Assembly: GCF_002744755.1 (NCBI RefSeq)
Contig: NZ_KZ319289.1
Location: 62,001-126,000 of the forward strand
Origin: Leeuwenhoekiella nanhaiensis
Lineage (GTDB): Bacteria > Bacteroidota > Bacteroidia > Flavobacteriales > Flavobacteriaceae
Direction: 5' to 3'
Length of the DNA: 64,000 nt
In this document: positions 11,936-37,030 of the stretch, piece after piece
Layout of the letters: each line of letters opens with the position of its first letter
How positions within the stretch are numbered: the first letter of the stretch is position 1
Position numbers and translations under genes: made by a program
Notes under the pieces: generated by a model
What the model was told of the DNA's origin: nothing
What the model saw: the letters and a program-made list of their open reading frames with translations, nothing else
The model's database searches: none

Positions 11936-12051
11936 TTTGAGTATTTTTACCCGCCTTTAGCACTTCACTAACCCAGTAGAAGCGCGGTGTGGGTATTAAA
12001 AATTAAGGAGCCTGTGATCTCAAATCCGGGTTCGGCTATTAAAAAAAGCAG

Positions 12052-12678
12052 ATGTCACTAAAAAAAGCTATAGGGATTATCGTCCTGATCTTGCTGATAG
12101 ACCAAATCAGTAAACTGTATATTAAAACCCATTTTCAGCTTCATGATGAAGTAGTTGTTTTTGACTGGTTCCGTATTTTATTTGTAGAAAATGAAGGTAT
12201 GGCCTGGGGAGCTCAAATCCCCGGAAACTATGGTAAAATTATTCTAACGCTTTTCAGAATAGGAATACTGCCGCTTATAGGTTACTGGTTGTATGACAGT
12301 GTGAAGAAGGGAGCTTCCAGAATTTTAATCACCGGCATCGCGCTCATTTTTGCTGGTGCTTTTGGTAACATAATCGACTCTGTATTTTACGGAGTAATAT
12401 TTGACGGCAGTGCAGGTCAACTCGCGACTTTTATGCCCGAATACGGTGGCTATGCACCCTTATTCTATGGCAGGGTGGTAGATATGCTCTATTTCCCGAT
12501 GTGGAAAGGCTATTTGCCCGAGTGGCTACCTATCTGGGGTGGTAAGTATTTTACGTTTTTCAACGCGGTCTTTAATATTGCCGATATGGCTATAAGTACC
12601 GGTGTTGGCTTGCTTCTGGTATTTAATAAACGTGCATTTGCAAAGGATAAGCAGGAAGCGCAGGAGCCTACAGCATAA
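12052..12678 (+). CDS. lspA: Lipoprotein signal peptidase (signal peptidase II)
   Basis: 208 residues, four membrane segments. An inner-membrane aspartyl protease that removes signal peptides from diacylglyceryl-modified prolipoproteins. The two catalytic Asp motifs are present: GNIIDS and FNIADMAIS, and the N-terminal LLIDQISKLYI is typical. The insert before the second motif (MLYFPMWKGYLPEWLPIWGG) makes it longer than the E. coli enzyme, as is common in Bacteroidota. The 3' end overlaps the convergent histidine kinase gene by 11 nt. Confidence 0.96.
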   Translation: MSLKKAIGIIVLILLIDQISKLYIKTHFQLHDEVVVFDWFRILFVENEGMAWGAQIPGNYGKIILTLFRIGILPLIGYWLYDSVKKGASRILITGIALIFAGAFGNIIDSVFYGVIFDGSAGQLATFMPEYGGYAPLFYGRVVDMLYFPMWKGYLPEWLPIWGGKYFTFFNAVFNIADMAISTGVGLLLVFNKRAFAKDKQEAQEPTA

Positions 12679-13810
12679 TGATAAACTTGGTGCCGTAACC
12701 GGGCTTGCTGGTGACGTCAATTTTTCCTCCTAAAGCCTCAACTTCATTTTTTACGATAAACAAGCCTACATTCTGACTGGTGTCTGAATTGCTGGTCTCG
12801 TTAGAAGACATTTGAAAAATCTTATCGGTATTGCCCTGCAAATCGTAACCCTTGCCATTGTCTTCAATAATCAGAGACAATTTCTTTTTGTTTTCCAGAC
12901 AATAGGCTTTGATTTCGGGTTTGCGATCTGGACTTTTGTTAAGGATTCCGTTCTTAATCAGCGTACAGAAAATATTGTGTAAAAACTCCGGATTGTACTT
13001 GATCACCGGTGTTTCTGAGAAATCAGAGTATAGATAAGCTTCTTCCAGTTCAATGAGTGGGCGCAATTCTTCCTTACTCCGATCAAATGCTTCTTCCAGG
13101 CTTATAGACACCAATGGGTCTGCAGCTTTGTTTTGTATGGAAACAACTTCTTTGAGTCTCGATACCGTTCTGTTTAAGCTGGCAGCGATCTCTTTGTAAT
13201 TGGCAAAAAGTTCTTTTTGATCTTGCGGAAGTTTATTGGTGTCAACTAACTGGCTGGTAAGTTCTAGGTTGTTTACGTGCGATTTGATGTTATGCGACAC
13301 ATAATTCGCAAAAGTGAACAGGCGCGAATTGTTTGCTTCTACCACTTCAATAGATTTTTGAAGCATCAGTTCACGCTCTTTTTTCTCATTGATGTTAATC
13401 ATGATTCCTTTAATACCCGTAACGCGACCTCTGGAGTTTTTAATAGGCTTGGCTATGCAATGTGCCCAAAACGGTTTATTGGTATACGTAACCATTTTTA
13501 AGATTCCGTCAAATTCAGCCTCCCCTTCTCCCAGCTGCTGGAATGTTTTGATAACAAGACCGTGAAATTCCATATCAAAAAAGTGAAGCCCGTGCTTAAG
13601 AGACGGCCGGTAGTTTTCCGGTGTTTCCAGAATATCCTGAAGTTGTTTATCAAACCAGGTTTTCTTTTCTATAAAATTGATACTCCAACCCCCTGCTTCG
13701 GCAACTTTGGCGACCTGCTCGTAATAAAAGCTGTCCTGTTTCTCTTTGGGAGATTCAACTTCAGATTTAGATAAAAAAGAGAAAAATCCGGTATTAGGCG
13801 ATTTTGACAT
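12668..13810 (-). CDS. PAS-domain sensor histidine kinase, cytoplasmic
   Basis: 380 residues, no signal peptide or membrane segment. A PAS domain (about 35-145, with AKPIKNSRGRVTGIKGI) is followed by a dimerisation/phosphoacceptor helix with H173 in YVSHNIKSHVN. The HATPase domain (about 265-380) has an N-box-like LIKNGILNK, the G1 box IEDNGKGYD, and GLFIVKNEVEALGGKI with a C-terminal GYGTKFIIML. It would autophosphorylate in response to an intracellular cue. No response regulator lies beside it, so the partner is unknown. Confidence 0.88.
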   Translation of the reverse strand: MSKSPNTGFFSFLSKSEVESPKEKQDSFYYEQVAKVAEAGGWSINFIEKKTWFDKQLQDILETPENYRPSLKHGLHFFDMEFHGLVIKTFQQLGEGEAEFDGILKMVTYTNKPFWAHCIAKPIKNSRGRVTGIKGIMININEKKERELMLQKSIEVVEANNSRLFTFANYVSHNIKSHVNNLELTSQLVDTNKLPQDQKELFANYKEIAASLNRTVSRLKEVVSIQNKAADPLVSISLEEAFDRSKEELRPLIELEEAYLYSDFSETPVIKYNPEFLHNIFCTLIKNGILNKSPDRKPEIKAYCLENKKKLSLIIEDNGKGYDLQGNTDKIFQMSSNETSNSDTSQNVGLFIVKNEVEALGGKIDVTSKPGYGTKFIIML

Positions 13811-13862
13811 CCTGCTTGGAAATTAAAATTTGATTGAAGATAACAAAAATATAAGTCTTCTG

Positions 13863-14426
13863 TTAAAACCTATAGGTATTAAGAGGTGTTATGCAGTGTG
13901 TTAATGCTATGTCTTCAGAATTATGAGGTAATGCGACTTCAGGCTCAAAAAAATTCAATCCGATTTTTAAGGCTTCAGGCTTGCACGCTGCCAAAAATCG
14001 ATCATAAAAACCTTTACCATAACCCAGGCGATTTCCTTTTTGATCGCAGGCTAACAGTGGAATGAAAATGACATCCAGTTGTTCGGCTTGTAGTTCCAGA
14101 CCATTTTGAGGTTCAGGGATTCCCCATTCGTTGGGTTTTATAACCAGATTATCAGTGAGCAGATAATGCCTCATACTGAGCTGCTCAAAATCACTTTTAG
14201 AAAGCACTATATTTTTGTCCTTTCCGCTTAAAATATTGAGAATATACTCGGTATTGACTTCTCCCAGCTTCACTATAGGTAAAAAGATATGGTAAAACTC
14301 GTGTTGCCAGATATCAAGCGAAAGCAATCTGTTTGCGATTTGCAAACTGGCTTCTTCCCGCTCTTCAGGCGTAAGTAGCCTGCGTAAATCTTTATACTTT
14401 TTTCTGAATTCGGCCTTACTCTTCAT
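13863..14426 (-). CDS. 5-formyltetrahydrofolate cyclo-ligase
   Basis: 187 residues. Converts 5-formyl-THF and ATP to 5,10-methenyl-THF in folate salvage. Family motifs: N-terminal KAEFRKKYKDLRRLLTPEER, central EWGIPEP, and the C-terminal signature GNRLGYGKGFYDRFL, which binds substrate and ATP. Its start overlaps the end of the aspartoacylase-like gene by 11 nt, so it is last in the rimB-rimK-aspartoacylase transcript. Often called ygfA or fau in other species. Confidence 0.94.
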   Translation of the reverse strand: MKSKAEFRKKYKDLRRLLTPEEREEASLQIANRLLSLDIWQHEFYHIFLPIVKLGEVNTEYILNILSGKDKNIVLSKSDFEQLSMRHYLLTDNLVIKPNEWGIPEPQNGLELQAEQLDVIFIPLLACDQKGNRLGYGKGFYDRFLAACKPEALKIGLNFFEPEVALPHNSEDIALTHCITPLNTYRF

Positions 14427-15405
14427 CTTCTGCCAATGCTGTTGATAAGTGAAAGATGGCGTCCCCTTGATAAACCAATGAGGCTTCGTTAGTATTGATG
14501 ATGTAGCCGTCGTTTGGGGCCTTTACTTTATGTCTGAACGAACCGTAGGGGTCTGTAATGGTTGCAATCACTTCATTCTTTTCTACGAAATCACCGCAGG
14601 TAATCTTTAAATGTAAGAGACCGCTGTATTTGGCCCGTAACCAGGTGCTGCTTTTTATGGTCACCACCTTTTTACCGTCTGCTTCCGGCGGCTGATGTTC
14701 CTTTGAAAGCATTTTAAAGTGATGCAGTATGCGTATTACGCCGTGTACTCCCGCGCGGGCAATATCTTTATCGCTAATCTGAGATTTTCCGCCTTCAAAA
14801 AGGAGAATGGGAATATTCATCTTTTCGCAGGTTGAGCGATAGGATTTGGTGATATTCTTTGAATACACAATAAAGGGAGCGCCAAAGATCTGCGCGTATT
14901 TCAGCAACTCTTCCTTTTCAGGGTCTACCCGTATTTGAGCTACGTTAAAACGGCTGCCGCCACCCGTGTGAAAATCGAGGCAAAAATCAGCAATGGGTAA
15001 AATCTTATTGGTAAACTGATAGGCAAAGCGACTGGCGAGTGAGCCGTTACGCGTTCCGGGAAAAACCCGGTTGAGGTCCCGCCCATCGGGAAACGCCCGG
15101 TCCATATTTAAAAAACCAAAAACATTGATTACCGGAATGCAAACGATAGTGCCGCGAGCCGGTTTGTTTATTTTTTTCGAAATCACCTGACGTACGATTT
15201 CCACTCCGTTGATTTCATCGCCATGAATCCCGGCAGTAATCAGGATGCAGGGCCCCGGTTTCTTTGACCGCTGAATGATTATAGGCACTTCAACAGAAGT
15301 GGTGGTGTAGAGTTTGGCCAGATTAAAATTGAGCGTGCGTTTAGCTCCGGGCGGAATTTTTTCGCCCAAAATATGCAACACATTTTTCTCGTCAAATCCC
15401 GTCAT
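14416..15405 (-). CDS. Succinylglutamate desuccinylase/aspartoacylase family zinc hydrolase
   Basis: 329 residues. An M14-like zinc carboxypeptidase fold: GIHGDEINGVEIVR gives the His and Glu ligands, LNRVFPG is the substrate-binding Arg segment and DFHTGGG supplies the further His. The C-terminal about 90 residues (LLHLKITCGDFVEKNEVIATI) form a small beta barrel typical of AstE/AspA relatives. The gene begins 3 nt after rimK. Placed beside a glutamate ligase and a retropepsin-like protease, a role in removing or handling acidic peptide tails is plausible, but the substrate is not shown by sequence. Confidence 0.88.
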   Translation of the reverse strand: MTGFDEKNVLHILGEKIPPGAKRTLNFNLAKLYTTTSVEVPIIIQRSKKPGPCILITAGIHGDEINGVEIVRQVISKKINKPARGTIVCIPVINVFGFLNMDRAFPDGRDLNRVFPGTRNGSLASRFAYQFTNKILPIADFCLDFHTGGGSRFNVAQIRVDPEKEELLKYAQIFGAPFIVYSKNITKSYRSTCEKMNIPILLFEGGKSQISDKDIARAGVHGVIRILHHFKMLSKEHQPPEADGKKVVTIKSSTWLRAKYSGLLHLKITCGDFVEKNEVIATITDPYGSFRHKVKAPNDGYIINTNEASLVYQGDAIFHLSTALAEDEE

Positions 15406-26709: not shown

Positions 26710-28353
26710 ATGAAAAAAATCAATCCCACACAGACCAAAGCCTGGAAGGCCCTTCAAGCTCATTTTGAAAAGGTAAAAGATCTTCAAATGAAAAATTTGT
26801 TTGCCGATGCCGGCCGTGCGGAAGCGTTCACCTTAAAATGGGATGATTTTTTAGTTGACTACAGCAAAAACCGAATGACTGCAGAAACCAAATCGTTACT
26901 GCTTGATTTGGCTGAAGAAATGAATCTGGAAGAAGCACGCGCAGCCTATTTTGGCGGAGCCGAAATTAACGAGACCGAAGGCCGTGCGGTGATGCACACT
27001 GCTTTACGTCAGCCTAAAGATGCGCACGTAAGCATTGATGGTGAAGATGTGATTCCTGAGGTTAATGACGTAAAAGAAAAAATAAAAGGTTTTTGCGATA
27101 CGGTTATCAGCGGAAGCCATAAAGGGTATACCGGCAAAGCTATTACCGATGTGGTGAATATTGGTATTGGAGGTTCAGATCTGGGCCCAGTGATGGTTGC
27201 CGAAGCATTGGCCTATTACCACAATCATCTCAACGTGCATTTTATCTCTAACGTAGATGGCGATCATGTGCACGAATCATTGAAATCTTTGAATCCGGAG
27301 ACTACTCTTTTTGTAATCGTCTCAAAAACCTTTACTACGCAGGAAACCCTTTCTAACGCCAATACCGCTCGTAAATGGTTTTTAGATAAGGTTGCGGGCG
27401 CAGCAAGTGAAGGGGAAGCGGTGGCTAAACATTTTGTTGCGGTTTCTACAAATGAGGAAGCGGTGAAAGACTTTGGTATAGACCCGAATAATGTGTTCAC
27501 GATGTGGGACTGGGTTGGCGGTCGTTTTTCACTATGGAGTTCTGTTGGCCTTTCTATAGCTCTGGCAGTAGGATACAGCAATTTTGAAAGTATGCTTGCA
27601 GGAGCTCACAAAGCCGATGGGCATTTTAAAAATGCTAATTTGGGCGAAAACATTCCGGTGATGATGGCGCTTACTACGGTTTGGTACAACAACTTCTTTG
27701 GTGCCGAAAGTGAAGCGATTATTCCATATACCCAGTATTTACACCGTTTTCCGGCCTATTTGCAGCAAGCAATCATGGAAAGTAACGGGAAAAGCGTTGA
27801 CCGTAATGGGAAACACGTAGATTATCAAACTGGTCAAATCGTTTGGGGTGAACCGGGAACCAATTCACAACACGCCTTTTTCCAACTCATACACCAGGGA
27901 ACCAAAATTATCCCGACCCATTTTATTGGGTATAAACATTCCCTTCACGGCGATACCGATCATCACAATAAGTTGATGGCAAACTTTTTTGCGCAGACCG
28001 AAGCACTTATGAATGGTAAAACCGAAGCAGAGGCTCGCGAAGAACTTCAATCTTCAGGGATGGATTCAGATGCCATTGAAAAACTGGTTCCGTTTAAAGT
28101 ATTTGATGGAAACAAGCCTACGACCACACTTTTGATTGACAAGCTAACTCCTGAAAGTTTGGGAGCTTTAATTGCCTTGTACGAACACAAGATCTTCACA
28201 GAAGGTATCCTTTGGAATATCTACAGTTACGATCAATGGGGTGTAGAATTAGGTAAACAACTCGCCAAAAATGTACTGAACGACCTCAATTCAGATCAGG
28301 TAGCTGCTCACGATGCTTCAACCACGCAGTTGATTAAAGCTTTTAAGAGTTAA
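26710..28353 (+). CDS. pgi: Glucose-6-phosphate isomerase
   Basis: 547 residues, the length of the large-type enzyme. Interconverts glucose-6-P and fructose-6-P. Signatures: [19 protein letters not shown], the PGI signature [13 protein letters not shown], catalytic [17 protein letters not shown], and the C-terminal [14 protein letters not shown]. It starts 2 nt after the M23 peptidase gene. No terminator is obvious before the next transcription unit. Confidence 0.97.
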
Positions 28354-28528: not shown

Positions 28529-31099
28529 ATGAAAAAAATTACAAGTTTACTTACACTTGTGTTTCTTTTGCTTACTGCTGCGGCACAGGCTCAAGGGACT
28601 ATTCGTGGAACTGTAGTAGATGGTGAGAATGGTACACCCCTACCCGGAGTTAACGTTGTTATTGAAGGCACCACAAACGGTGTTTCAACAGACTTTGATG
28701 GTATGTTTACCATTCAGGTAGTAGAAAACACGGGTTCTGTACGTGTTTCTTATGTGGGCTTCGCTCCTAAGGTTATTCCATTTGACCTCTCGGGTCAAAA
28801 AGTTATTGATTTAGGTACCATTGAGTTAGCTATGGATGATAATGCTTTAGATGAAGTAATTGTTCGTTCTTACTCTTTAGCTATAGATCGTAAAACACCT
28901 GTTGCAGTTTCTACAATTAAAGCTGAAACTATCGAGAATCAATTGGGTAATCAGGAATTTCCTGAGATTTTAAAAACAACCCCCGGTGTTTATGCCACAC
29001 GAGGAGGAGGTGGTTTTGGAGATGCAGAATTGCGTATACGTGGTTTTAACTCGGAGAACGTTGCGGTAATGATTAACGGTATTCCTGTAAACGATATGGA
29101 AAACGGTCGAGTATACTGGAGTAACTGGGCTGGTCTTTCTGATGTTGCAAGTTCAATGCAGGTTCAAAGAGGTCTTGGAGCTGCAATGATTGCTTTACCT
29201 TCAATTGGAGGTACAGTAAATATTGTTACTAAATCAACTGACATTGCAAAAGGTGGAAATGTAATGATGACTACCGGTAACGATGGGTATACTAAATATG
29301 GTTTTACACTTTCAACTGGTCTTTTAGACAGCGATTGGGCGGCGACAGTAAGTTTGTCCAGAACTTCTGGTAATGGCTTTGTTGATGGAACTCCATTCGA
29401 TGCCTATTCATATTTTGTGAATGTGGCTAAAAAGATTAATGAAAATCACGAATTATCTTTTACCGCATTTGGAGCGCCACAACGTCACGGTCAGCGTCAA
29501 AATCGTCTTTTGATAGATGATTACAGAAGAAGTCCTTCTGGAATTAAAACTAATGTTGACTGGGGTTATAGAAATGGTCAGTTTGTAAGCATCGAAGATA
29601 ACTTTTATCACAAGCCACAAATGTCATTAAACCACTATTGGACAATTAATGATAAATCTTCTCTTTCTTCTGCTGTTTACTATTCATTTGGTACCGGTGG
29701 TGGCGGTGGCTGGTCTGGTGACAATAAATTTCAATTTGGCACCAATTCTCCTTATCGAGACGGATTATATGGACCGGTAGATCTTGATGCTATTGCTGCA
29801 GATAACCAGGCAGCAGGTATTAATGGATCTGAAACAATCTTGAGAGCATCTCGAAATAACCACAATTGGCTTGGTGCTTTATCCCAATTCAATACAGAAA
29901 TTTCAGATTTTATTGATTTCACTGGAGGTATAGACTTACGTATTTATAAAGGAGAGCATTATCAGGAAGTGACAGATCTCCTTGGAGGACTATATTATAT
30001 TGATGATAATGATGAAAACGATCCGAATAAGTTAGTTCGCGAAGGTGATAAATTTAGCTACTATGATTTTGGATATACGAATTGGGCAGGTTTCTTTGCT
30101 CAGGCTGAATATGATAAAGACGCCCTTTCTGCAGTAGTATCTGTAGCAGGTTCTAATACAGCATATAAGCGTAAAGACTTTTTTAACTATTTAGACAGCG
30201 ATCCTCAACGTGAAACTGACTGGATTAATTTCCCGGCTTTCAGTACCAAGGGTGGTGTTAATTATAGATTGGACACTGAAAATAACGTGTTTGCAAATAT
30301 TGGGTATTTTGAAAGAGCACCATTTAATGATGCCGTATTCCAGAATTTTCAAAATGATGTGAACGCTGATGCCGAGAATCAGAAAATCTTTAGTGCAGAA
30401 TTGGGTTATGGGTTTAGAGGAAGTAACTTTAGAGCTGACTTAAACGTATATCGCACTAAATGGATGGATAGAACATTTACCAGAAGATTTACTGACCCTA
30501 ATGATAATCAATTTACCGCTAACATCTTAGGTATTGATGCATTACACCAGGGTATCGAATTGGAAATGCAATATCGTCCTGTTGATGCATTAACGTTGAC
30601 CGGTATGCTTTCCGTAGGAGATTGGAAATGGGATAACGATGTTGAGGATGTGCCTATTTTTGATGAAGACCAGAATCAATTGGTTGATGATGAGGGCGAA
30701 CCTGTTTTAGTAAATGTTTTGATTGATGGATTGAAAGTAGGTAACTCTGCTCAAACTACTTTTGCAGTAGGCGCAGATTACGCGATATTACCATCTACTA
30801 ATATACGTGCCAACTTTAACTATGCTGGGGATTATTTCTCAGATTATAATCCACTAGGGCGTGATGAGAGAGGACCACAAACCTGGGAGATGCCAGCTTA
30901 TGGATTACTGGATTTAGGTTTGACGCATCGTTTTGAATTTGGAGGTTTTAATGCTCAGATCAACGCTAATGTGTTTAACGTTTTAGATACAGAATATCTT
31001 TCAGATTCACAGAACGGTTCTGGTTCTGTTGCAGAGACGGCTCTTGTATACTACGGCCCTGGGCGAACGTATACTGTAGGTGCAAAAATTAATTTCTAA
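28529..31099 (+). CDS. TonB-dependent receptor of the candidate DNA-capture locus
   Basis: 856 residues. Signal peptide ending AQAQ, a CarboxypepD_reg-like domain (about 23-105, with PLPGVNVVIEGTTNGVSTDFD), a plug (about 125-240, with LRIRGFNSENVAVMINGIPV) and a barrel ending TVGAKINF. The plug spelling DMENGRVYWSNWAGLSD is shared by a group of Bacteroidota receptors that lack a SusD partner. Here the next two genes, 11 and 74 nt downstream, are a repeat lipoprotein and an endonuclease lipoprotein. Substrate uptake of nucleic acid fragments is inferred from these neighbours only. Confidence 0.92.
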   Translation: MKKITSLLTLVFLLLTAAAQAQGTIRGTVVDGENGTPLPGVNVVIEGTTNGVSTDFDGMFTIQVVENTGSVRVSYVGFAPKVIPFDLSGQKVIDLGTIELAMDDNALDEVIVRSYSLAIDRKTPVAVSTIKAETIENQLGNQEFPEILKTTPGVYATRGGGGFGDAELRIRGFNSENVAVMINGIPVNDMENGRVYWSNWAGLSDVASSMQVQRGLGAAMIALPSIGGTVNIVTKSTDIAKGGNVMMTTGNDGYTKYGFTLSTGLLDSDWAATVSLSRTSGNGFVDGTPFDAYSYFVNVAKKINENHELSFTAFGAPQRHGQRQNRLLIDDYRRSPSGIKTNVDWGYRNGQFVSIEDNFYHKPQMSLNHYWTINDKSSLSSAVYYSFGTGGGGGWSGDNKFQFGTNSPYRDGLYGPVDLDAIAADNQAAGINGSETILRASRNNHNWLGALSQFNTEISDFIDFTGGIDLRIYKGEHYQEVTDLLGGLYYIDDNDENDPNKLVREGDKFSYYDFGYTNWAGFFAQAEYDKDALSAVVSVAGSNTAYKRKDFFNYLDSDPQRETDWINFPAFSTKGGVNYRLDTENNVFANIGYFERAPFNDAVFQNFQNDVNADAENQKIFSAELGYGFRGSNFRADLNVYRTKWMDRTFTRRFTDPNDNQFTANILGIDALHQGIELEMQYRPVDALTLTGMLSVGDWKWDNDVEDVPIFDEDQNQLVDDEGEPVLVNVLIDGLKVGNSAQTTFAVGADYAILPSTNIRANFNYAGDYFSDYNPLGRDERGPQTWEMPAYGLLDLGLTHRFEFGGFNAQINANVFNVLDTEYLSDSQNGSGSVAETALVYYGPGRTYTVGAKINF

Positions 31100-31110
31100 A
31101 AATATTGAAA

Positions 31111-32829
31111 ATGAAAAATTTTATTTATTTATGGGTTTTTGCCCTGTTGAGCCTGGCAACAGTAGGTTGTGAGCCTCTAGAAGATATCAATGAAGAATTG
31201 GAGGCTAATGCGCCAGAATTCAACAATGATGGGAATGCAGTTCCTTATACGTTAACTGAGGATGACTATAGCGATCTTAAATTAGATGATAATTACTTCA
31301 ATGATGAAGATGAAGCAAGAGCACTTATTCCTGCTTTATTAGAGCAACAATTTCCTATTCTGGGGAACGGATCTTTAGTTGAAGTTACATTTATGGTAAA
31401 TGACACCCTCGAGCCTTCGTTTTATACTGTTGTAGAAGCAGATTATTCTGCAGCCGGGTTGGAAACTGATTATTTTCCAAACTTTGCTTCTGTTCAAGGT
31501 TTTCTTGAGGATGAGTTTTCGCAGTCTCTTGAAGGGGATTTAGTAGAACTTAGTTATAGAGTTCAAGCAGAAGTTATAGAATATGAACTTGTTGATGCAG
31601 ATTATAGTTTTGCGGCTACTGAACTTGAGGATGAATATCCTGCTCAAGCCTCAAACTTAGCGAGGTTTGGTAATTTCAATATTCAAAATAATAGTAGTAG
31701 TGCTTGGAGTTTAGATCAAATTGTTGAGGCTATAGGTTTAATAATTGATGAAAATTTTGGTAATGATGAGACTAAGGTCTACAATGTTTCTTATAATGCC
31801 TATGATGGTTCAGACGTGAATAGGAATGTAGGGGTGCGTTTTGTAGATGGTGAGTATGTCGTAGAGTCTTCATTGGCTACATCTTACACTCTTAGTGAGT
31901 CTGATTATGATTTAATAGGTGTGGAATTGGCATCGGATTATCCTGGTCCGGCGGCGAATGCTGCGCGTTTTAGTAGTTTTGATATACGTGAAACAAGTGG
32001 TAATTACTGGCGTCCAGAAGCTATTCTTGAAGCATTCAATGTTGTTTTGAAAGATCAATTCCCAAGTGCTGTAGATGGTTCAAAATTCAATATTACTTAT
32101 GCAGAGTTTCCTGGAGGTGCTACACGTGAAGCCAATATTTCACTTATAAAAGATTCTGGGAATTTTGTCGAAGATAATGAGCCGACAATAATTGTTGCGG
32201 ACGTAACAAGAGTTTTTTCATTAACAGAAGGCGAATGGAATAGGCCTCTAGAGTTAGACAGTAGCTTGTATCAAAATGAATTTGGTCAACGTTTTTCCAA
32301 CTTCGGAGATTTAGAAGATGCAGGTTATTTTATTGGCTTATATTTAGATCAGTTATTTCCTTATGCTCAACCTGGTGATTATAAATCAGTAGCGTTTAGA
32401 TATTACAATGGTAGTCGTACGGTCACTAAATATGGAAGGTTTGAGTTTATTAACGGCTCGTTTAAATACTTGCCTGAAGTTATTGAAACCAAACTTCAAT
32501 TTGGTAAAGAAGATGGAGAATGGCTGCCAGATAATACTATAGTTTATGTTCTTGCCGCAAGTGATTATGATTACGTTGCTGATCAGCTTGGAGCAAAATA
32601 TCCTTCTGAAACTGCGAATTTGAGTCAGTATGGTAACTTTAATACATTCAGCTGGGATGACGCAGAATTGTTAGAAGCATTCAACATAATTTTAGTTGAT
32701 ATCGTTGCGCCTAACGCAGAAGTTGGTCAGAAATACCAGCTTGTTGTAAGCATTTATAACGGTTCTACAGTTAATGCTAATTATGCTTTAATAAAGACTG
32801 AGGATGGTTCTTGGAAATATCAAGGTTAA
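31111..32829 (+). CDS. Repeat lipoprotein (about six related modules), function unknown
   Basis: 572 residues from the ATG at 31111 (a TTG two codons earlier is less likely). Lipobox LATVGC gives Cys20, followed by an acidic stretch. The mature protein repeats a module that begins with Y-[TEV]-L-x-[ED]-x-DY: about residues 46 (YTLTEDDY), 105 (YTVVEADY), 158 (YELVDADY), 259 (YTLSESDY), 369 (FSLTEGEW) and 478 (YVLAASDY). Longer modules continue with an EYP/DYP..A.NL..FGNF segment, a W....ILEAFN..L helix and a strand Y.V.Y..Y.G. No catalytic residues stand out. It occupies the place usually held by SusD, so a surface substrate-binding role is proposed. Confidence 0.8.
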   Translation: MKNFIYLWVFALLSLATVGCEPLEDINEELEANAPEFNNDGNAVPYTLTEDDYSDLKLDDNYFNDEDEARALIPALLEQQFPILGNGSLVEVTFMVNDTLEPSFYTVVEADYSAAGLETDYFPNFASVQGFLEDEFSQSLEGDLVELSYRVQAEVIEYELVDADYSFAATELEDEYPAQASNLARFGNFNIQNNSSSAWSLDQIVEAIGLIIDENFGNDETKVYNVSYNAYDGSDVNRNVGVRFVDGEYVVESSLATSYTLSESDYDLIGVELASDYPGPAANAARFSSFDIRETSGNYWRPEAILEAFNVVLKDQFPSAVDGSKFNITYAEFPGGATREANISLIKDSGNFVEDNEPTIIVADVTRVFSLTEGEWNRPLELDSSLYQNEFGQRFSNFGDLEDAGYFIGLYLDQLFPYAQPGDYKSVAFRYYNGSRTVTKYGRFEFINGSFKYLPEVIETKLQFGKEDGEWLPDNTIVYVLAASDYDYVADQLGAKYPSETANLSQYGNFNTFSWDDAELLEAFNIILVDIVAPNAEVGQKYQLVVSIYNGSTVNANYALIKTEDGSWKYQG

Positions 32830-32849
32830 TCTTTAGTGCATTAAATTTT

Positions 32850-32884
32850 AAAAACCTCCTGCAGCCATGTGGGAGGTTTTCTTT
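32850..32884 (+). terminator. Hairpin terminator or attenuator after the repeat lipoprotein
   Basis: AAAACCTCC and GGGAGGTTTT flank a 12-nt loop, followed by CTTTT. It stands between the repeat lipoprotein and the endonuclease gene and may lower, rather than block, read-through. Confidence 0.65.
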
Positions 32885-32903
32885 TCTATATTAAAATTGT
32901 ATT

Positions 32904-34556
32904 ATGAAAAAAGTTGAATTGAAATACTCCAAAATAGCTTTAGGCTTTATGTTAATTGGTTTGTTGGGTTGTAGTAGTGATGAAAGCCCTCAAAGCCAGG
33001 AGCCGGAAGCAGAAGTTAAAGCGCCAGAGGCAGTTGATGATACTTATACTACCGGAGAGAATGAAGTGCTAAGAATTTCAAATTTGCTTGAAAATGATGT
33101 GATCTACGATTATGGTAGAATAACAGAATTTGATGCATCTTCAGTAGAAGGTGGATCTATTAAAAAGAATAGTGATGATTCTTACAGTTATACACCTCCA
33201 GTAAATTATGTAGGAGAAGACAGTTTTGAATATACACTTTGTGATGCTGAATTACCTGCAAATTGCTCAAGCGCTAAAGTCACAATTACGGTTACGGGAG
33301 CAGAGCCTGTAGCTGTTGATGATAGTTATGAGGTTGAGGAGAACAGTTCTCTAGTTCTAAAAAACTTTACAGATAATGACGAACTTTTAGATAATGCAAA
33401 AGTTTCTTCGATAGATATTACCGGTTTGGAAGGTACTGCTGTTTTAAATGAAGATGCTTCAATAACTTATACTGCTCCAAATGGTTTTACGGGAGAAGAT
33501 ACCTTTACATATAGCCTGTGCGATGACGATGCCACGCCTAATTGTATGACAGCAAATATAGTAATTACGGTTACTGATGAAGGGAATCCAACAGCAGTAA
33601 ACGATGAGTTTATAGCGAAAGCAGGTTCAAGTACTATAACCCTATCTCGGTTTTTAGAAAATGACAATCTTCTAGACGATGCTGCTGTTACAAGCTTAAG
33701 CTATTCCGGTTCAGGAAGTGTTGTATTAAATGAAGATCAGACAATCTCCTACACTGCTCCGGCTGGTTTTAATGGAATGGATGAAATAACTTATTCTCTG
33801 TGTGATGATGATCAGCCTAATGCTTCTTGCTCGGAGGGAATTATTCATGTGCAGGTTTACACAGATCAGCAGTCATTTACAATTCCATCTGAATTGAAAA
33901 GCTATTACGAGAATATTCCGTTTAGATCAGCAACTCAAGAGAACTTTGATATTTTGAGATTTTTCACCAGATATAATCACACAACTATTTTAGAATATAC
34001 AGATCGTCACGATTACCTTTACGACGCAGATGAAGACCCGTCAAACTCTGCTAATGTAATCCTGATGTATACAGGTGAAAGTCGCGATCGCAGGGAGTGG
34101 TCATCTAGTGCAAATTCATATTCGCCACAAACCTTTAATACGGAACATGTTTTCCCGCAATCCCTGTTATCTACCGAAGATGCGGTGACTGATTTACACC
34201 ATTTACGTTCCACAGATGATGCGATAAACTCATTGCGTCTCAATTATCCGTTTGTAGATGGAAGCGGTATTTACAAGTTGGTTAACGACAATTCCTGGTA
34301 TCCCGGTGATGAGTGGAAGGGAGATGTAGCGCGTATGGTGCTCTACCTAAATATTCGTTATGGAGAAGACTTTAATAGAGTAGGTAACCTTGATTTGTTT
34401 CTAAAATGGAACCGCGAAGATCCGGTGTCTGAATTCGAAAAGCAGCGCAATAACGTAATTCAAGGTGCTCAGGGCAATCGTAACCCATTTATTGACAATC
34501 CGTATTTGATAACCTTGATATGGGGCGGCACACCTGCTGAGAATACCTGGCAGTAA
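32904..34556 (+). CDS. Surface-type lipoprotein endonuclease I with three Ig-like modules
   Basis: 550 residues. Lipobox LIGLLGC gives Cys23; the following SSDES resembles the acidic surface-export signals known for Bacteroidota lipoproteins. Three cadherin/Ig-like modules (about 41-131, 134-225, 228-320) share AVDD.Y starts, ENDxLLD and YTAP.GF..D. Each has a Cys pair 8-9 residues apart with Asp-rich spacing (C113/C121, C206/C214, C300/C309). The C-terminal domain (about 330-540) is endonuclease I: FNTEHVFPQS (His415 as the likely general base), DLHHLRSTDDAINSLR (Asn442 as a metal ligand) and the closing RNPFIDNP. It should cut DNA, possibly RNA, outside the cell. Confidence 0.9.
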   Translation: MKKVELKYSKIALGFMLIGLLGCSSDESPQSQEPEAEVKAPEAVDDTYTTGENEVLRISNLLENDVIYDYGRITEFDASSVEGGSIKKNSDDSYSYTPPVNYVGEDSFEYTLCDAELPANCSSAKVTITVTGAEPVAVDDSYEVEENSSLVLKNFTDNDELLDNAKVSSIDITGLEGTAVLNEDASITYTAPNGFTGEDTFTYSLCDDDATPNCMTANIVITVTDEGNPTAVNDEFIAKAGSSTITLSRFLENDNLLDDAAVTSLSYSGSGSVVLNEDQTISYTAPAGFNGMDEITYSLCDDDQPNASCSEGIIHVQVYTDQQSFTIPSELKSYYENIPFRSATQENFDILRFFTRYNHTTILEYTDRHDYLYDADEDPSNSANVILMYTGESRDRREWSSSANSYSPQTFNTEHVFPQSLLSTEDAVTDLHHLRSTDDAINSLRLNYPFVDGSGIYKLVNDNSWYPGDEWKGDVARMVLYLNIRYGEDFNRVGNLDLFLKWNREDPVSEFEKQRNNVIQGAQGNRNPFIDNPYLITLIWGGTPAENTWQ

Positions 34557-34674: not shown

Positions 34675-35115
34675 ATGTATAACACCATACAATTTGTACA
34701 CTCCTATTGGGCCTATCTTGTGCTCATCGTACTGACTATAACGACTATAAATGTGATTGTTTCCTATTTTGGAAATAAAGAATTTGGCGCCCGTGATTTT
34801 CGCCTAGCACTTTTTACATTGATTGTTACGCATATTCAGTTGCTGATAGGAATCGTGCTTTACTTTGTTTCACCATTAGGCGCTAAAGCCATCGCTTCTG
34901 AAGGGATGAGCGCTGCAATGAAAGATCCTAATCTGAGGTTGTACGTTGTGGAGCATCCGCTCGCGATGATTGTAACCGTAGTATTCATAACGATTGGCTA
35001 CAGCAAACACAAAAAGAAACTGACCTCAAAGCCCAAGTTTAAATTACTGGCTATTTTTTATACCCTTGCATTGATTGTAATGCTAACACGCATTCCTTGG
35101 TCTAACTGGTTTTAA
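34675..35115 (+). CDS. Four-helix inner membrane protein, conserved hypothetical
   Basis: 146 residues with four predicted membrane segments (about 10-30, 46-68, 92-106, 122-140). Histidines occur near the helix starts (FVHSYWAY, VTHIQLLIG, VVEHPLAM), an arrangement like cytochrome-b-type or CopD-like small membrane proteins, so heme binding is possible but unproven. It is a single-gene unit between two terminators. In Flavobacteria similar proteins carry no firm function. Confidence 0.7.
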   Translation: MYNTIQFVHSYWAYLVLIVLTITTINVIVSYFGNKEFGARDFRLALFTLIVTHIQLLIGIVLYFVSPLGAKAIASEGMSAAMKDPNLRLYVVEHPLAMIVTVVFITIGYSKHKKKLTSKPKFKLLAIFYTLALIVMLTRIPWSNWF

Positions 35116-35231: not shown

Positions 35232-36519
35232 GTTTCATCCAGTCTTCGATTTCTTCAACCTCAAGCGGAATGTTGCGCATCAGATTAAAAGGTTCGCCAC
35301 TTTCCTGAATCACTACATCATCTTCCAGACGAATACCAAAACCTTCATCGGGCAGATAAATACCCGGCTCTACCGTAAACACATTATTGGCTTGCATGGG
35401 TTCGTGCAGCAATCCGTAATCGTGGGTGTCCAGACCAATATGGTGTGAAGTGCCGTGCATAAAATACTTTTTGTAAGCCGGCCAGTCTTTGTTTTCGTTT
35501 TGAACATCAGCTTTATCAAGAAGCCCAAGACCTACTAATTCCGAAGTCATCAGTTTACCCACTTCTTCGTGATAGGGTCCCCAGAGCGCTCCGGGTACTA
35601 ACATCTTGGTCGCTTCCTTTTTTACACGCAGCACGGCATTGTAAACTTCTTTTTGGCGCTCTGAAAACCTTCCGCTTACCGGGATGGTTCGGGTCATATC
35701 GCTACTGTAATTGGCATATTCTGCACCTATATCCAGTAAGATCAATTCTCCTGCTTTGCATTCAGAATTATTGACTACGTAATGCAAAACATTCGCGTTG
35801 TTTCCGCTCGCGACAATAGGCGTATAGGCAAAACCTCTGGAGCGATTTCTGAGGAACTCGTGCATAAATTCGGCTTCAATCTCATATTCCATTACGCCGG
35901 GTTTAACAAACTGAAGCACGCGCTTAAACCCTTTTTCGGTGATGTTACAGGCCTGCTGCATAATGTCGAGTTCAATAGGATCTTTAACCGAGCGTAAGCG
36001 CTGCAAAATAGGATTGCTTTTTGCCACGCGATGAGCGGGATACTGCTCTTTTACGGTTTTGTTGAAACGCGCCTCGCGGGTTTCGGTCTCCACATTAGCA
36101 CGGTAATGCTCATTGGTGTTGATGTAAAGCGTTTCGGCCTGAGTCATCAGTTCGTAGAAAATTTTATCCCATTCCTTAAGCCAGTAAACGGTTTTTACAC
36201 CGCTCACTTCATACGCATGCTCTTTGGTAAGCTTTTCACCTTCCCAGACAGCAATATGGTCATTGGTTTCCTTTAAGAACAGGATTTCGCGATGCTTTTC
36301 TTTCGGGCAATCAGGAAATAACACCAGGATACTTTCCTCCTGATCTACTCCGCTTAAAAAGAACAAATCGCGGTTCTGCTGAAAAGGCATCGTGCTATCT
36401 GCACCTATTGGGTAAATGTCGTTACTGTTAAACACCGCAAGACTATTTGGCTGCATAGCCTCCATAAAATTTTTACGGTTTTTGATAAATAAGTTGCGGT
36501 CTATAGGGTCGTATTTCAT
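35227..36519 (-). CDS. Aminopeptidase P family (Xaa-Pro aminopeptidase)
   Basis: 430 residues. Removes N-terminal residues preceding proline. An N-terminal creatinase-like domain (about 1-165) is followed by the pita-bread M24 domain with metal ligands in LILLDIGAEYANYSSDMTRT (two Asp), HGTSHHIGLDTHDYG (His), FTVEPGIY (Glu) and IRLEDDVVI (Glu). All five ligands are present, so it should be active. Cytoplasmic, no signal peptide. The stop codon is embedded in a tandem heptamer repeat. Confidence 0.94.
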   Translation of the reverse strand: MKYDPIDRNLFIKNRKNFMEAMQPNSLAVFNSNDIYPIGADSTMPFQQNRDLFFLSGVDQEESILVLFPDCPKEKHREILFLKETNDHIAVWEGEKLTKEHAYEVSGVKTVYWLKEWDKIFYELMTQAETLYINTNEHYRANVETETREARFNKTVKEQYPAHRVAKSNPILQRLRSVKDPIELDIMQQACNITEKGFKRVLQFVKPGVMEYEIEAEFMHEFLRNRSRGFAYTPIVASGNNANVLHYVVNNSECKAGELILLDIGAEYANYSSDMTRTIPVSGRFSERQKEVYNAVLRVKKEATKMLVPGALWGPYHEEVGKLMTSELVGLGLLDKADVQNENKDWPAYKKYFMHGTSHHIGLDTHDYGLLHEPMQANNVFTVEPGIYLPDEGFGIRLEDDVVIQESGEPFNLMRNIPLEVEEIEDWMKR

Positions 36520-36561
36520 AATTGAATTTGAATTTTTTCAAAGGTACAGGAAATTCGAGGA

Positions 36562-36642
36562 ACATCCCCTCCAACCTCCCCTTCAAAGGGGAGGCTTTAC
36601 GTTTTCGGGCCCTCCCTTTGAAGGGAGGGTTGGGAGGGATGT
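36562..36642. repeat. REP-like GC-rich hairpin upstream of DUF559 gene
   Basis: The left arm starts ACATCCCCTCCAACCTCCCC and contains TTCAAAGGGGAGG; the right arm CCCTCCCTTTGAAGGG then AGGGTTGGGAGGGATGT is nearly its reverse complement over about 33 nt. The two arms are separated by about 15 nt. Much more GC-rich than the surrounding DNA. Confidence 0.85.
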
Positions 36643-36667
36643 AAAAGCAATTTTCCTAAATTTAATT

Positions 36668-37030
36668 ATGTCAAATAAAATCATCCCATACCGATCAGAT
36701 TTAAAAGAGCTTGCCAGGGCTTTGAGGAAGGGTCAGACCGAAGCTGAAAAGCTATTGTGGGAGGCAATCAGGAGAAAAAAGCTGGGGGTGGAATTTCACA
36801 GACAAATCCCTTTATTGGATTTTATTGTTGATTTCTATTGTCACGAGCTTGGACTTGCAATTGAGGTGGACGGTTCTGTTCACGACACTCAATTTCTGGA
36901 GGATGCTGAGCGTTCAGCTAAAATAGAGCAGTATGGCGTTAAAATTTTACGGTTTACAAATGATCAGGTCTTTAAGGATATAAATAGTGTGATAGCAGCC
37001 ATCAAGTTGGAAATTGAAGAGCGCAGTTAA
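36668..37030 (+). CDS. DUF559 endonuclease-like protein in a REP-like cassette
   Basis: 120 residues from the ATG at 36668; longer in-frame extensions would read through the upstream repeat and are rejected. DUF559 has a Vsr-like PD-(D/E)xK fold: TEAEKLLWEAIRRKKLG, FHRQIPLLDFIVDFYC with the acidic residue, then LAIEVDGSVHD and ILRFTNDQVF. It is likely a DNA nicking or repair-type nuclease. Hairpins of the same repeat family lie 26 nt before the ATG and begin at the stop codon, suggesting that gene and repeats form one unit. Confidence 0.85.
   Translation: MSNKIIPYRSDLKELARALRKGQTEAEKLLWEAIRRKKLGVEFHRQIPLLDFIVDFYCHELGLAIEVDGSVHDTQFLEDAERSAKIEQYGVKILRFTNDQVFKDINSVIAAIKLEIEERS

Follow-up and report, generated by a model that had tools for sequence, protein, structure and literature searches.

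How DNA passes across the outer membrane of Bacteroidota is poorly known. The closest described system is a pair of genes in Riemerella anatipestifer: markerless deletion of RA0C_RS04915, which encodes a predicted outer-membrane protein with a CarboxypepD_reg domain, abolished natural transformation, as did deletion of the adjacent RA0C_RS04920, whose product carries DUF5689 and DUF5017 (PMC8459023). The same report counts the receptor-like gene and its neighbor among the four of eight essential transformation genes that are unlike known machinery, and places homologs of the two next to each other across Flavobacteriaceae with two exceptions (PMC8459023). As for DNA as a nutrient, phosphate depletion induces the Endonuclease I (EndoI) nucleases of Flavobacterium johnsoniae (PMC8115612), Lutibacter has been found to incorporate DNA carbon, and marine flavobacteria are reported as DNA degraders (PMC8289736). 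Here, we describe a locus in a 64-kb stretch of the 4.37-Mb Leeuwenhoekiella nanhaiensis genome (hereafter, the window) in which a TonB-dependent receptor (TBDR1), a repeat lipoprotein (REP) and an Endonuclease I lipoprotein (NUC) are encoded in succession. The TBDR1-REP pair is the unit that recurs across genomes, with NUC as a recurrent, optional third part, and we tentatively propose that the pair works in the outer membrane as a Sus-like importer made of two parts, which takes in nucleic acids or fragments of them, and that NUC, where present, serves it as a nuclease at the surface. We place this proposal just short of an even chance, because NUC is optional and because the link to Riemerella consists of a domain description together with receptor kinship.

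The three open reading frames (ORFs) lie exactly where they had been placed in the window, and the features of the locus are as follows.

28529-31099, plus strand: TBDR1, 856 aa, with a CarboxypepD_reg domain, plug and barrel (ORF and Pfam).
31111-32829, plus strand: REP, a lipoprotein of 572 aa counted from its ATG, with Cys20 and six acidic repeats; a TTG at 31105 is listed as an alternative start.
31246-32826, plus strand: repeat array of REP, split by motif into units starting at about 31246, 31423, 31582, 31885, 32215 and 32545.
31867-32184, plus strand: REP unit 4, modeled alone as a beta-alpha-alpha-alpha-beta-beta-beta domain (predicted local distance difference test score, pLDDT, 96.8).
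32851-32880, plus strand: terminator-like hairpin with a T run behind REP (scan allowing G-T pairs).
32904-34556, plus strand: NUC, an Endonuclease I lipoprotein of 550 aa (ORF and Pfam).
33015-33895, plus strand: stalk of NUC, three Ig-like Big_9 domains with approximate limits (three Pfam stretches).
33975-34502, plus strand: catalytic domain of NUC, PF04231, residues 358-533 (Pfam).
26710-28353, plus strand: phosphoglucose isomerase (PGI), the usual upstream border of the slot that holds the cassette (Pfam).
34675-35115, plus strand: a small membrane protein, named CytM here, the common downstream border of the slot.

A first-pass annotation had read these genes as an extracellular DNA capture system composed of a TonB-dependent receptor without SusD, a lipoprotein of unknown repeats and an endonuclease lipoprotein, and all three descriptions of the parts hold. 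TBDR1 matches the Pfam families CarbopepD_reg_2 (E 1.8e-19), Plug (E 2.3e-16) and a barrel (E 6.2e-14); no SusD-like gene follows it, and it scores 95.9 bits against the SusC/RagA profile TIGR04056, whose cut-off is 368.25. The signal peptide of REP, with Cys20, leads into C-E-P-L-E-D-I, and that of NUC, with Cys23, into C-S-S-D-E-S-P; acidic residues stand at +4 to +6 in the commonest forms listed. An acidic stretch directly after the lipobox cysteine is the surface-export signal of Bacteroidota lipoproteins, and REP and NUC may be exposed on the cell surface. NUC matches Endonuclease_1 (PF04231) at E 8.7e-34, with 117.7 bits against a curated cut-off of 25, and is the sole PF04231 match in its genome. 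Its catalytic domain also matches the Endonuclease I/Vvn-type structures 1oup and 2ivk in the PDB (E 3.1e-7). Residues E414, H415 and N442, which we take to be catalytic, are invariant across 42 NUC proteins, and N442 aligns with an Asn of 1oup.

In an initial survey based on a single-sequence search, REP was found in 14 of 60 genomes, including its own. At all 13 other loci TBDR1 lay directly upstream of REP with PGI before it, and NUC followed REP at 10. A scan of genomes with a REP profile then returned 301 REP-encoding stretches, the best 80 of which were analyzed; all counts out of 80 below refer to these. Their ORFs were labeled with hidden Markov models (HMMs) from the first set of loci; wherever a contig or flank breaks off, the neighbor counts are minimum values. 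TBDR1 was directly upstream of REP in 79/80, separated by 9-24 nt, the sole exception being a locus (L181) that is cut by the end of its contig, with the REP frame starting at nucleotide 269. The HMM used to label TBDR1 included lone receptors from the same slot, and all 15 of the upstream receptors labeled by it that were placed in a tree grouped with TBDR1. PGI was upstream of REP in 70/80, and NUC, an EndoI, was directly downstream on the same strand in 36/80, with 54-147 nt between the genes. This linkage of the three genes is not due to chance. The co-occurrence proposed for them was borne out for TBDR1 and REP and only in part for NUC, which stands behind a terminator-like hairpin and is missing from the other 44 loci; an obligate three-gene system was rejected on that count.

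Several further observations tie an EndoI to REP. Lutibacter oricola (L144) carries, between REP and CytM, an EndoI of another architecture on the opposite strand (12001-14994, minus strand), with fn3 and the type IX secretion domain Por_Secre_tail. Eight PGI-CytM slots hold a lone TBDR1-like receptor (L075, L077, L078, L081, L086, L087, which has two, L218 and L219; the slot of L220, at a contig end, was left out of the counts), and NUC was present in 0/8 of them. At 12 other EndoI places fetched from relatives, REP was nearby in none, and weak receptor-like matches (21-45 bits) were seen at four. At the level of whole genomes, any EndoI was present in 14/14 REP-positive and 22/46 REP-negative genomes (Fisher p 0.0003), or, by genus, in 5/5 versus 17/39 (p 0.048). 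Separately, the TBDR1-REP pair has a further receptor of the TBDR1 type in front of it in L118, L124, L127-L129, L152, L171, L176, L177, L188 and L191, and in L146 the PGI gene is split over four separate frames by frameshifts or assembly errors.

Where NUC is present, its length matches that of REP. We compared 42 NUC loci, comprising the 36 above, the window and five more of the same genus. REP was 367-387 aa at 14 loci and 554-572 aa at 28, and NUC was 448-458 or 533-556 aa, respectively, with agreement in 42/42. Pfam scans found three Big_9 stretches in the window's NUC, which is of the long form, and two in the short NUC of L033; for the remaining NUC proteins, length served as the guide. 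When mapped onto a tree built from flanking genes (40 loci, leaving out L120 and L181 with their short flanks), the length class changes at least eight times, and NUC follows REP in 8/8 independent pairs (p 0.0078); on a TBDR1 tree (41 loci) it does so in 10/10 (p 0.002). A tree of the REP C-terminus, built from the 32 of 42 rows that the motif rule caught (the other 10 were dropped), needs only three class changes, and one of the final Ig domain of NUC, with all 42 rows, needs four. One reading of the length match is that REP and NUC are matched in reach, but we do not claim a strict functional match. In partial Mantel tests on 40 loci, the distances of TBDR1, REP and the NUC stalk correlate even with the flanks accounted for (r 0.25 to 0.48, p 0.001). 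The NUC catalytic domain shows no such correlation with TBDR1, the REP N-terminus and the stalk (r -0.04 to -0.01), and its correlation with the REP C-terminus is r 0.19 (p 0.007).

The cassette is also hypervariable. Between the window and L037, flanking genes are 95-99% identical (PGI 97%, CytM 99%), TBDR1 70%, REP 32%, the NUC stalk 41% and the NUC catalytic domain 86%. A similar pattern was seen in Zunongwangia (L125 versus L128: PGI 97%, M23 99%, TBDR1 72%, REP 47%), and some close pairs (L175/L193, L115/L116) show conservation throughout. Another comparison, L117 (Leeuwenhoekiella blandensis MED217) with L029, combines TBDR1 at 94% identity, the C-terminal end of REP at 77-91% and the NUC catalytic domain at 87-100% with differing REP middles and NUC stalks, which hints at more than one tract. 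The cassette is therefore often replaced or diversified, in the manner of exposed surface features.

The kinship of TBDR1 leads back to the transformation pair. Its best match within its own genome is a second receptor, TBDR2 (about 478-480 kb of contig C1, E 2.9e-38; next match E 3.1e-25). In a quick tree of 62 receptors, with long branches flagged (16 TBDR1, 12 lone or extra slot receptors, 15 TBDR2 and 19 of about 49 other receptors of the same genome), TBDR1, the lone receptors and TBDR2 cluster together (support 98), and within this cluster TBDR1 and the lone receptors are sisters. TBDR1 is related to TBDR2 as a paralog and not as an ortholog. The partner of TBDR2 is a DUF5689 lipoprotein, and the TBDR2-DUF5689 module fits the Riemerella-type transformation pair, to which it was matched by domain description. 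DUF5689 was found with a family profile in 47/60 genomes, as against 14/60 for REP with a single-sequence search. In 36 of the 47 (places L031, L033, L035 and L068-L102, chosen by a strong match per genome), the DUF5689 gene had TBDR2 directly before it in 35 and an EEP nuclease gene as a neighbor in 33; in 20 further loci (L250-L269) the corresponding counts were 20 and 17. This transformation-type module therefore seems to come with a nuclease too. L. nanhaiensis itself has it on another contig (L068), flanked by EEP. In many genomes the typical layout is the slot followed by the EEP gene, TBDR2 and the DUF5689 lipoprotein, and TBDR2 lies at most 9.5 kb downstream of REP in 35/80. Two variants of the module were observed: L096 has two consecutive copies of TBDR2 plus DUF5689 lipoprotein (frame of about 900 aa, three DUF5689 matches each), and L250, from another family of the order, has TBDR2-DUF5689 close to PGI, without TBDR1-REP in the stretch examined.

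REP itself resembles no described protein among the resources searched. Each of its six repeats opens with a Y-x-L-x-x-x-D-Y-like motif; no Pfam match, no SusD match in Pfam or NCBIfam (best NCBIfam E 0.42) and no PDB sequence match was obtained. The AlphaFold2 model of whole REP has a mean pLDDT of 84.2, and fold searches gave no PDB match at E <= 0.001 for unit 4 and, for the whole protein, two matches at E of about 4e-4 with TM-scores of 0.12 or less. A known fold for REP was rejected on the absence of a credible match in either search. Among open-licence papers on the receptor, nuclease, DUF5689 and DNA uptake, searched by title and abstract, nothing described REP, which has no family name. 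The protein carries a net charge of -70 over 553 aa. The NUC stalk (-16.2 per 100 aa) and the DUF5689 protein, the partner lipoprotein of the sister module (-8.8; 34 sequences), are likewise acidic. A charge-based grip of REP on DNA is unlikely because of this acidity, and gripping by charge alone is not supported. Kinship between REP and the DUF5689 protein was also rejected, at the sensitivity of hhalign, which found similarity limited to the signal peptide. Two REP proteins (L035, 4446-6098; L036, 7921-9654) have an extra domain inserted between repeats; that of L035, the one scanned, is DUF5017 (28.9 bits against a cut-off of 28.8). The same domain type is the C-terminal one of the DUF5689 protein, scoring 27.3 bits in L031, just under the cut-off, and the domain in L035 is the sole feature common to REP and the DUF5689 protein.

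Between REP and NUC lies the hairpin listed above. Three such hairpins were found in the window compared to 3.6 expected from shuffles, so their number is not above chance, and the hairpin gains weight because it is conserved in other loci: it is present behind REP in 35/36 NUC loci, where 12-89 nt (median 37) separate its end from the start of NUC. NUC thus seems to stand behind the terminator of the TBDR1-REP pair, and would therefore need read-through or an overlapping promoter to be expressed, probably at a lower level. Further downstream in the window, an ORF at 36416-37030 (plus strand), whose listed start overlaps an aminopeptidase-like gene on the opposite strand, has a second half that presumably resembles a DUF559-type endonuclease-like protein.

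Under the importer proposal, NUC, held off the surface by its Ig-like domains, would cut extracellular DNA; REP, beside TBDR1, would capture or gate the fragments, possibly via a bound divalent metal as REP itself is strongly negative; and TBDR1 would take them in with TonB energy, as a source of phosphate, nitrogen or nucleosides. Feeding is more likely than transformation as the purpose of TBDR1-REP, because the genome keeps a separate DUF5689 module, and because of the phosphate response of the F. johnsoniae EndoI nucleases (PMC8115612) and the assimilation of DNA carbon by Lutibacter (PMC8289736). The DNA-capture idea as first annotated is partly supported: the pairing, the recurrent nuclease, the co-varying lengths and the receptor kinship speak for it, and the loci without NUC, the terminator before NUC and the acidity of REP do not. 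What the analysis shows is the gene content, the pairing, the recurrence of the nuclease, the receptor kinship, the matching lengths and the hypervariability; the surface location, the DNA cargo, the sequence of steps from cutting through binding to import, and the preference for feeding are inferred.

A number of results weigh against this proposal. NUC is not behind REP in 44/80 TBDR1-REP loci, and the lone slot receptors, the closest kin of TBDR1, are without REP and without nuclease in 8/8 slots, two of them in Leeuwenhoekiella. A hairpin was found behind REP in 44/44 loci lacking NUC, by a slightly different rule that misses the window's own hairpin and, as for the other conserved-hairpin counts, without a shuffled control; because the hairpin is present with and without NUC, NUC may be a later neighbor of the pair, and membership in the same simple operon is weakened. 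REP is extremely acidic (86 sequences, with a median of -12.9 charges per 100 aa; isoelectric point about 4 or lower, which is all that the program floor of 4.05 allows one to say), and its repeats have no profile similarity to the DUF5689 protein. TBDR1 and TBDR2 are only 29% identical over residues 12-390 and 23% over 416-775. The length match can arise from co-transfer of neighboring segments, given that the few class changes on the REP C-terminus and NUC-stalk trees suggest that matched segments may move together. Finally, mutation of tonBA or tonBB lowers transformation, and this is no proof of TonB-driven DNA import, since the authors attribute the consequence of losing tonBB to iron and suspect that the tonBA effect reflects the transport of nutrients (PMC8383284).

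An alternative, which we regard as doubtful yet substantial, is that the ligand imported by TBDR1-REP is an unrelated one, for instance a vitamin, a glycan, a peptide or a metal complex, and that NUC is an optional neighbor that happens to have persisted in the slot. It is consistent with the loci without NUC, the hairpin separating REP from NUC, the acidity of REP and the nuclease-free lone receptors; TBDR1 also has sub-cut-off profile matches to haem/transferrin, B12 and siderophore receptors, uninformative at such distance. It does not readily account for the occurrence of NUC with REP but in none of the lone-receptor slots, the differently built EndoI in the slot of L. oricola, the agreement of REP and NUC size classes at every locus compared, or the absence of REP, with only a few weak receptor-like matches, from the other EndoI places.

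The cassette might alternatively act in the DNA uptake of natural transformation, alongside or as a variant of TBDR2-DUF5689, with NUC trimming surface DNA. This would fit the kinship of the two receptors, the adjacency of both modules in 35/80 loci and the presence in the L. nanhaiensis genome of ComEC, of a protein with DUF1343 and of one of 296 aa that matches HHH_3 twice, all of them kin, by family or domain, to products of other essential Riemerella genes. No comEC lay near DUF5689 in the 20 further loci L250-L269 (of 103 DUF5689-positive among 246 genomes), and the Riemerella locus was not identified by this route. We nevertheless consider a role in transformation improbable, given that the genome already has a TBDR2-DUF5689 module, that DUF5689 is found in far more genomes than REP, albeit by differing search types, that a strong surface nuclease should destroy transforming DNA, and that F. 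johnsoniae, which has homologs of the Riemerella pair, was not competent under the authors' conditions (PMC8459023). Very improbable, finally, is a cassette that is a diversifying surface antigen or phage-exposed receptor with NUC degrading phage or matrix DNA, for although its identity collapses between near-identical flanks in the window and L037, such hypervariability points to exposure rather than to a function and would fit the other readings as well, and the NUC catalytic domain stays conserved.

If the importer proposal is true, marine flavobacteria would have a specific route for the uptake of DNA phosphorus. A larger picture, which we think unlikely as a whole, is a family of TonB-powered nucleic-acid importers in Flavobacteriaceae, with TBDR2-DUF5689 plus EEP for transformation and TBDR1-REP plus EndoI for feeding as paralogous modules, each with its own nuclease; REP would represent a new repeat fold, matched in reach to the nuclease, and fragments would pass from blade to gate. 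Such a widespread sister module, with its 301 REP-encoding stretches and its recurrent nuclease, would make TonB-dependent nucleic-acid import testable.

Compared with known systems, TBDR1-REP resembles the Riemerella pair in having a gene with a CarboxypepD_reg domain and, immediately behind it, one that encodes a surface-type partner. The nearest kin of TBDR1 in its own genome, TBDR2, has a partner with DUF5689 and near-threshold DUF5017, and a nuclease gene is adjacent to both the TBDR2-DUF5689 and TBDR1-REP modules. It differs from the Riemerella-type pair in that REP bears repeats in place of DUF5689, the genome has a separate TBDR2-DUF5689, and the nuclease is an EndoI, not EEP. The EndA1 and EndA2 nucleases of F. 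johnsoniae (Fjoh_4721, Fjoh_4723) likewise have pf04231, are listed as outer-membrane proteins and are induced by phosphate depletion, but they are listed as orphan genes with pf00041 and pf00932, and the passages of that source drawn on here mention no Big_9 stalk or TBDR1-REP neighbor (PMC8115612). With the Endonuclease I/Vvn-type nucleases (1oup, 2ivk) NUC shares the catalytic domain, but it is a lipoprotein on an Ig-like stalk. As in SusCD/PusCD of Bacteroidota, a TonB-dependent barrel and a partner lipoprotein are encoded in one transcription unit with a hydrolase gene behind; in contrast with these systems, TBDR1 falls under the SusC/RagA cut-off and REP is not SusD-like. TBDR1-REP would work in the manner of a Sus pair and is kin to the DNA-uptake pair, but the defining features that were tested place it in neither group.

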